DNA of 64,000 bases from a virus. The DNA is taken from positions 371,805-435,804 of IMG/VR virus record IMGVR_UViG_3300028840_001395. The stretch is one strand, 5' to 3'. The notes beneath the pieces were generated by a model. The model was not told the DNA's origin. It saw nothing but the letters and a program-made list of their open reading frames with translations, and searched no databases. Shown here in pieces: positions 38,152-38,218 of this stretch (positions are counted from its first letter, which is position 1; each line of letters begins with the position of its first letter). Both the position numbers and the translations under genes were made by a program.

Positions 38152-38218
38152 TAGCTGCGGGGACTGTGCCGCCAGTTCAGCTTGGCAACGCTTCTGACGG
38201 CCATCCTGCCCGCAGCTA
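38152..38218 (+). ncRNA. Y-RNA-like hairpin in the leader of the Ro-like gene
   Basis: TAGCTGCGGG (38152-38161) pairs perfectly with CCCGCAGCTA (38209-38218). Inside, GCCG-C-CAG pairs with CTG-A-CGGC and AGC with GCT around loop TTGGCAAC, giving one long interrupted hairpin of 67 bases. Bacterial and animal Ro proteins bind Y RNAs, noncoding RNAs whose ends form a bulged stem, and these are often encoded next to the ro gene. The fit is by position and fold only. It might instead be a 5'-UTR regulatory structure. Confidence 0.5.

Follow-up and report, generated by a model that had tools for sequence, protein, structure and literature searches.

The final 64 kb of a virus record of 435,804 bases (IMG/VR record IMGVR_UViG_3300028840_001395, positions 371,805 to 435,804; hereafter the window) contain a 67-base hairpin at 38152-38218, shortly before a gene for a Ro60-like protein. 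We suggest that this hairpin is probably the last member of a tandem array of three Y-RNA-like RNAs that belong to a phage Ro ribonucleoprotein and would share one docking stem carrying interchangeable modules. The three RNAs, here called A, B and C, are located between a sigma-70 promoter and the Ro60-like gene. Each of them is matched by R1, a covariance model built from seven hairpin-type elements of relatives and containing no sequence from the window. The main features are the following:

37859-37887, plus strand: sigma-70 promoter (TTGACA-17-TAGAGT) with 10 of 12 consensus letters, 8 bases upstream of RNA A.
37896-38029, plus strand: Y-RNA-like RNA A, a docking stem around a tRNA-like module; R1 match at 37901-38023, 26.1 bits, E-value 1.1e-4; folding z -3.4.
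37924-37997, plus strand: tRNA-like module within RNA A, folding as a cloverleaf whose anticodon loop has 6 bases (CTTCAA), given as tRNA-??? by ARAGORN and matched by RF00005 with 57 bits.
38032-38109, plus strand: Y-RNA-like RNA B with a short-hairpin module; R1 match at 38033-38107, 44.4 bits, E-value 1.5e-9; folding z -2.0.
38152-38218, plus strand: Y-RNA-like RNA C with a short-hairpin module; R1 match at 38156-38214, 42.2 bits, E-value 5.7e-9; folding z -3.0.
38259-39866, plus strand: Ro60-like protein of 535 residues, predicted helical-repeat ring plus VWA domain; AlphaFold2 model with a predicted local distance difference test (pLDDT) score of 85.7, its best PDB matches all being Ro60.

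An earlier sequence-only reading of this DNA described C as a bulged hairpin with 10 perfect end pairs, placed 40 bases upstream of the Ro-like start, and both points hold. The end stem has ten perfect pairs (UAGCUGCGGG/CCCGCAGCUA) and the pairing inside is interrupted, with a folding energy of -33.4 kcal/mol (z -3.0) that was equalled by 2 of 200 dinucleotide shuffles, and 40 bases separate the 3' end of C from the ATG at 38259. That reading saw the third member of the array and overlooked the other two. It also put a phage promoter directly ahead of the hairpin, where our promoter scan found none; CATAGAGTAGTCATT at 38138 lacks a -35 partner and is found nowhere else in the window. The good promoter, whose TTGACA box is perfect, precedes RNA A, and since equivalent promoter boxes are also found 5-10 bases ahead of the first array RNA in five relatives (L004, L018, L020, L006 and L007), we assigned it to the whole array and not to C alone.

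Proteins related to the Ro-like protein (27-71% identity) come from viral contigs, from one phage record and from four contigs of bacterial metagenome-assembled genomes. Beside their ro-like genes there is a recurring motif composed of a closing stem, GRGAACU, a second stem, UUCAG, a variable part and two returning strands, and this motif is present in three tandem copies (A, B and C) in the window. The covariance-model search across relatives that had been proposed as a check recovered the array: at E-values up to 10, R1 produced exactly three matches in the 64-kb window (B, C and A, with the E-values given above), while in the 435-kb record B and C alone were reported at that search's settings, with nothing outside the array. 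Of 20 distinct loci, 18 have array-type RNAs close to the ro-like gene, and an array may contain up to about five of them. Their position varies, being downstream of the gene in L012 and L013 and about 1.9 kb upstream in L010. A second model, R2, made from 19 RNAs, matched one place in the genome bearing relative L024 and had no matches at E-values up to 0.001 in the 94 other genomes of one bacterial phylum used as a specificity control. A blastn search of the region against phage records returned no matches.

Compensatory changes were found throughout the shared stem. The two alignments were fitted to the structure, and so are somewhat in its favour, and related sequences share part of the changes, a relatedness that controls with slid pairing partners preserve: in the first alignment (A8, 19 RNAs), both sides changed in 14 of 15 pairs, with a covariation score of 0.62 against 0.235 in shuffles and at most 0.17 with slid partners; in the second (A9, 42 RNAs), both sides changed in all 15 modelled pairs, 189 cells in total, with a score of 0.70 against 0.23 in shuffles, reached by none of 500 shuffles, and again at most 0.17 with slid partners. 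A lack of compensatory base changes in homologues had been named beforehand as the result that would count against the Y RNA proposal. As such changes are abundant (15/15 pairs in 42 RNAs), the proposal survives this test.

The same data bear on whether the hairpin arose by chance, acts as a terminator or belongs to a longer coding frame, all of which we consider extremely improbable. It is true that hairpins form easily in G+C-rich DNA and that a GTG-started frame opens at 38166. On the other hand, the covariation and the E-values of the model argue against chance, the pairs are not broken in relatives, and the stem is not followed by the T run of a terminator. In relatives such as L019, L005 and L024, the ro-like gene has a ribosome-binding site followed by its ATG start and no such extension, and the N-terminal extension from the GTG at 38166 was rejected because the relatives' starts lack it. 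RNA C is more than chance.

The identity of the neighbouring gene, which the sequence-only reading had called Ro-like, is borne out by the fold of its predicted product. Comparisons with Pfam gave only weak VWA matches, and PHROG 850, annotated as 'RNA-binding protein', was found at an E-value of 0.064. Searching solved structures by sequence, with the protein and with a family profile, did not reveal Ro, and a fold search was therefore needed. For the AlphaFold2 model (built from 20 relatives, pLDDT 85.7), the nine top PDB matches by Foldseek were all Ro60 or TROVE proteins, Thermus phage phiLo Ro60 included. A second structural aligner gave a Z of 18.0 across 406 residues to Ro60 (2i91), while the best non-Ro structure reached 11.1 and was confined to the VWA part. 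The modelled protein thus has the Ro60 fold, with ring and VWA domain. Within the VWA metal site (DxSxS, T, D), D363, S365 and S367 are invariant across 20 sequences and T415 and D437 nearly so. The Ro-like proteins of L008, L009 and L010 are extended at both ends, by about 100 residues at the N-terminus and by a tail at the C-terminus, which the other relatives lack.

One end is built alike in all array RNAs: about 7-10 pairs form the closing stem, the strands then open into an asymmetric internal loop, and a second stem follows, leading to a UUCAG-like turn. The letters of the internal loop are AACU or GACU on the 5' side and about CCUN on the 3' side. What this stem carries is variable. Among the 55 elements examined, 17 contain a tRNA in normal order, about 13 a circularly permuted one, and most of the others short inserts. 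A tRNA was considered permuted when detected only after joining the inner part end to start, which occurred in none of 72 shuffled controls. L009 5290-5407, scored as permuted, matches the Rfam tRNA in normal order, hence the count of about 13, which includes a few uncertain cases. Members with the 3' half followed by the 5' half are L005 5847-5979, L009 4940-5085, L012 8924-9073, L013 10713-10860, L022 3945-4073 and L024 5839-5968. In the window, RNA A bears a normal-order tRNA-like fold, while B and C bear short hairpins with no tRNA; the tRNA mimic that bacterial Y RNAs typically contain is therefore found in A and not in hairpin C.

Given these modules, the array could be read as a tRNA precursor unit, in which the long stems are handles for processing, a functional tRNA is released from A, and B and C are what is left after the loss of their tRNA. 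In line with this idea, A and 16 other elements contain a tRNA in normal order, tRNA genes are abundant around related arrays, and the share of U33 in array tRNAs (12/17) is not clearly below that outside arrays (71/87). We nevertheless regard it as quite improbable, considering the 6-base anticodon loop in A, the permuted tRNAs in about 13 elements, the retention of stem and internal loop in elements without any tRNA, and the tight linkage to a Ro-fold gene. Some array members may decode as tRNAs.

As in Y RNAs generally, the ends of RNA C pair into a stem broken by an internal loop, and C is adjacent to a gene whose product has a predicted Ro60 fold. The array resembles YrlA (RF02553; Salmonella rsr-yrlBA-rtcBA) in its paired ends, asymmetric internal loop, second stem and tRNA-like module, in being encoded beside a Ro gene, and in the presence of RtcB in the same genome (PMC7790460). 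A single operon of Salmonella comprises the Ro gene, the Y RNAs and rtcBA (PMC7790460). The permuted members of the relatives also keep the YrlA order of T arm, acceptor hairpin and D arm. A permuted tRNA on the stem, present in relatives such as L005 (5847-5979), is not carried by A, B or C: the tRNA of A is in normal order, B and C have no tRNA module, and the loop letters AACU/CCUN differ from those of YrlA. The L005 element (5848-5982) aligns over its full length with RF02553 at an E-value of 4.8e-5, and weak matches to the same family were found at L012 8966-9041 and L007 2226-2322, the best relative scoring 31 bits, below the gathering score of 69. All three YrlA-matching members lie on R2 matches, that of L007 being weak (E-value 0.07). 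Since the shared phage stem and a YrlA-type module occur in one molecule, the arrays are tied to bacterial Y RNAs. The YrlA-like RNA of L007 (2195-2332) is placed directly before a phage transfer-messenger RNA gene (2347-2705), away from the Ro-like gene.

The Y RNA of Deinococcus radiodurans (RF01053) likewise adjoins a Ro gene and combines a lower stem for Ro with an upper module (PMC4726728), although RF01053 has no meaningful match in the phage record. Vertebrate Y1, Y3, Y4 and Y5 are similar in that they are hairpins whose ends pair and whose lower stem is interrupted (PMC4726728). In vertebrates, Ro60 binds this lower stem, which has seven pairs and in which a bulged C faces a bulge of three bases (PMC4726728); the bulge layout of the phage RNAs is different (4 bases against about 5-6), and the RNAs of the window match none of the Y RNA families in Rfam. 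Earlier reports have described both Ro proteins and YrlA RNAs from phages (PMC7824862, PMC7765460, PMC12282133), including TROVE proteins of jumbo phages (PMC7824862), and the authors describing Listeria phage CKA15 proposed that abundant RNAs near its Ro gene may be Y RNAs (PMC12282133). The protein of the window agrees with these in being phage-encoded and of predicted Ro fold, with the Ro60 of Thermus phage phiLo (PDB 9l5y) among its best fold matches, but its family is beyond the reach of Pfam TROVE. In the literature surveyed, with the main Y RNA papers and reviews outside it, we found no Y RNA array mixing hairpin, direct and permuted modules. Taken as a whole, the proposal of a Y-RNA-like RNA adjoining a Ro-like gene finds support in the compensated pairs, the Ro60 fold, the linkage and the weak YrlA matches, with the single RNA of that proposal replaced by three.

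Several results weigh against this interpretation. In the window, Rfam at gathering and relaxed thresholds reports only tRNAs plus one weak plastid match. Over the whole record, RF02553 has no match at the array, with chance-level or tRNA-driven matches elsewhere, and the best RF01053 match, not at the array, has 13.4 bits against a gathering score of 80. The Ro-like protein has no match to Pfam TROVE (PF05731) at E-values up to 10. The training elements of R1 were chosen by a motif first spotted in the window and one relative, so that the independence of the model is incomplete; the R1 match is far stronger than the motif alone would give. In L011 and L023, no array was detected by the model search. 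Upstream of the distant Ro-like gene of L023 (31% identity), at 3940-4420, there are repeated similar elements missed by the model, with GUUAUAG replacing UUCAG.

The main rival is that C is a cis-acting leader: the Ro-like protein would bind its own 5' leader by way of a Y-like hairpin and control its own translation or mRNA stability, with no need for a separately released RNA. In favour of this, C is 40 bases from the start codon, no terminator was found between C and the Ro-like ATG, and the array and the ro-like gene share one promoter. Such a leader would hardly be expected in arrays of up to about five members, in arrays that follow the gene, as in L012 and L013, or precede it by about 1.9 kb, as in L010, or with tRNA modules on several members, and we consider it unlikely. 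The two roles, cis leader and Y RNA, could coexist.

Returning to the Y RNA interpretation, we lean slightly towards a general picture for large phages in which a single Ro-like protein works with a set of up to about five Y RNAs, whose docking stem is shared and whose swappable modules provide several partners or gates. Transcription would start at RNA A from the single sigma-70 promoter and continue across the whole array into the Ro-like gene, and the transcript would be cut into separate RNAs. The end formed by the shared stem and internal loop would be bound by the Ro-like ring protein, and the modules may cover the ring as a gate, by analogy with Deinococcus. Alternatively, the modules may bring Ro to RNA-processing partners such as the phage RtcB, host PNPase or tRNA-binding enzymes; in Deinococcus, a Y RNA tethers Rsr to PNPase (PMC4726728, PMC7790460). 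The purpose might be the sorting or repair of RNAs broken during infection. An RtcB RNA ligase is encoded elsewhere in the phage record (G000:C1:101242-102504, E-value 7.3e-90), and this would fit an involvement with tRNAs or other RNAs that are cleaved in the course of infection. No RNA ligase of the PF09414 family was found in the record.

Other features lie around the array and the Ro-like gene:

38221-38240, plus strand: small G+C-rich hairpin of 7 pairs (-12.6 kcal/mol), in the gap between the array and the ribosome-binding site.
38248-38252, plus strand: ribosome-binding site GGAGG of the Ro-like gene, identified by sequence.
39877-40869, plus strand: ARPP-1 family protein (PF20208, E-value 1.4e-18), next to the Ro-like gene in relatives.

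Hairpins resembling that at 38221-38240 were observed by eye at the equivalent place in L004 and L018, and this element could be involved in processing or in protecting the mRNA. The ARPP-1 gene is also downstream of the Ro-like gene in L003, L005 and L014-L023, and therefore the two proteins probably work together. Shortly after it there are two tRNA genes (40983-41059 and 41072-41146) whose anticodon arms and T arms are almost the same. Their anticodon loop is enlarged; ARAGORN assigns them the four-base anticodon ggga, and by eye they look Pro-like. They may serve to suppress frameshifts, be variants that resist nucleases, or act as mimics. The minus strand carries a gene of the deoxycytidine monophosphate/cytidine deaminase family (37085-37777) a short distance upstream of the array promoter.

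The arrays look like natural domain swaps, in which one compensated docking stem is combined with three kinds of module, side by side and in many phages. This makes the notion that the stem docks and the module decides directly testable. As both tRNA orders are found on the same stem, the arrays may reveal how the permuted module of YrlA relates to ordinary tRNAs. Pfam TROVE does not detect this Ro-like family, and the number of such systems is therefore probably underestimated.
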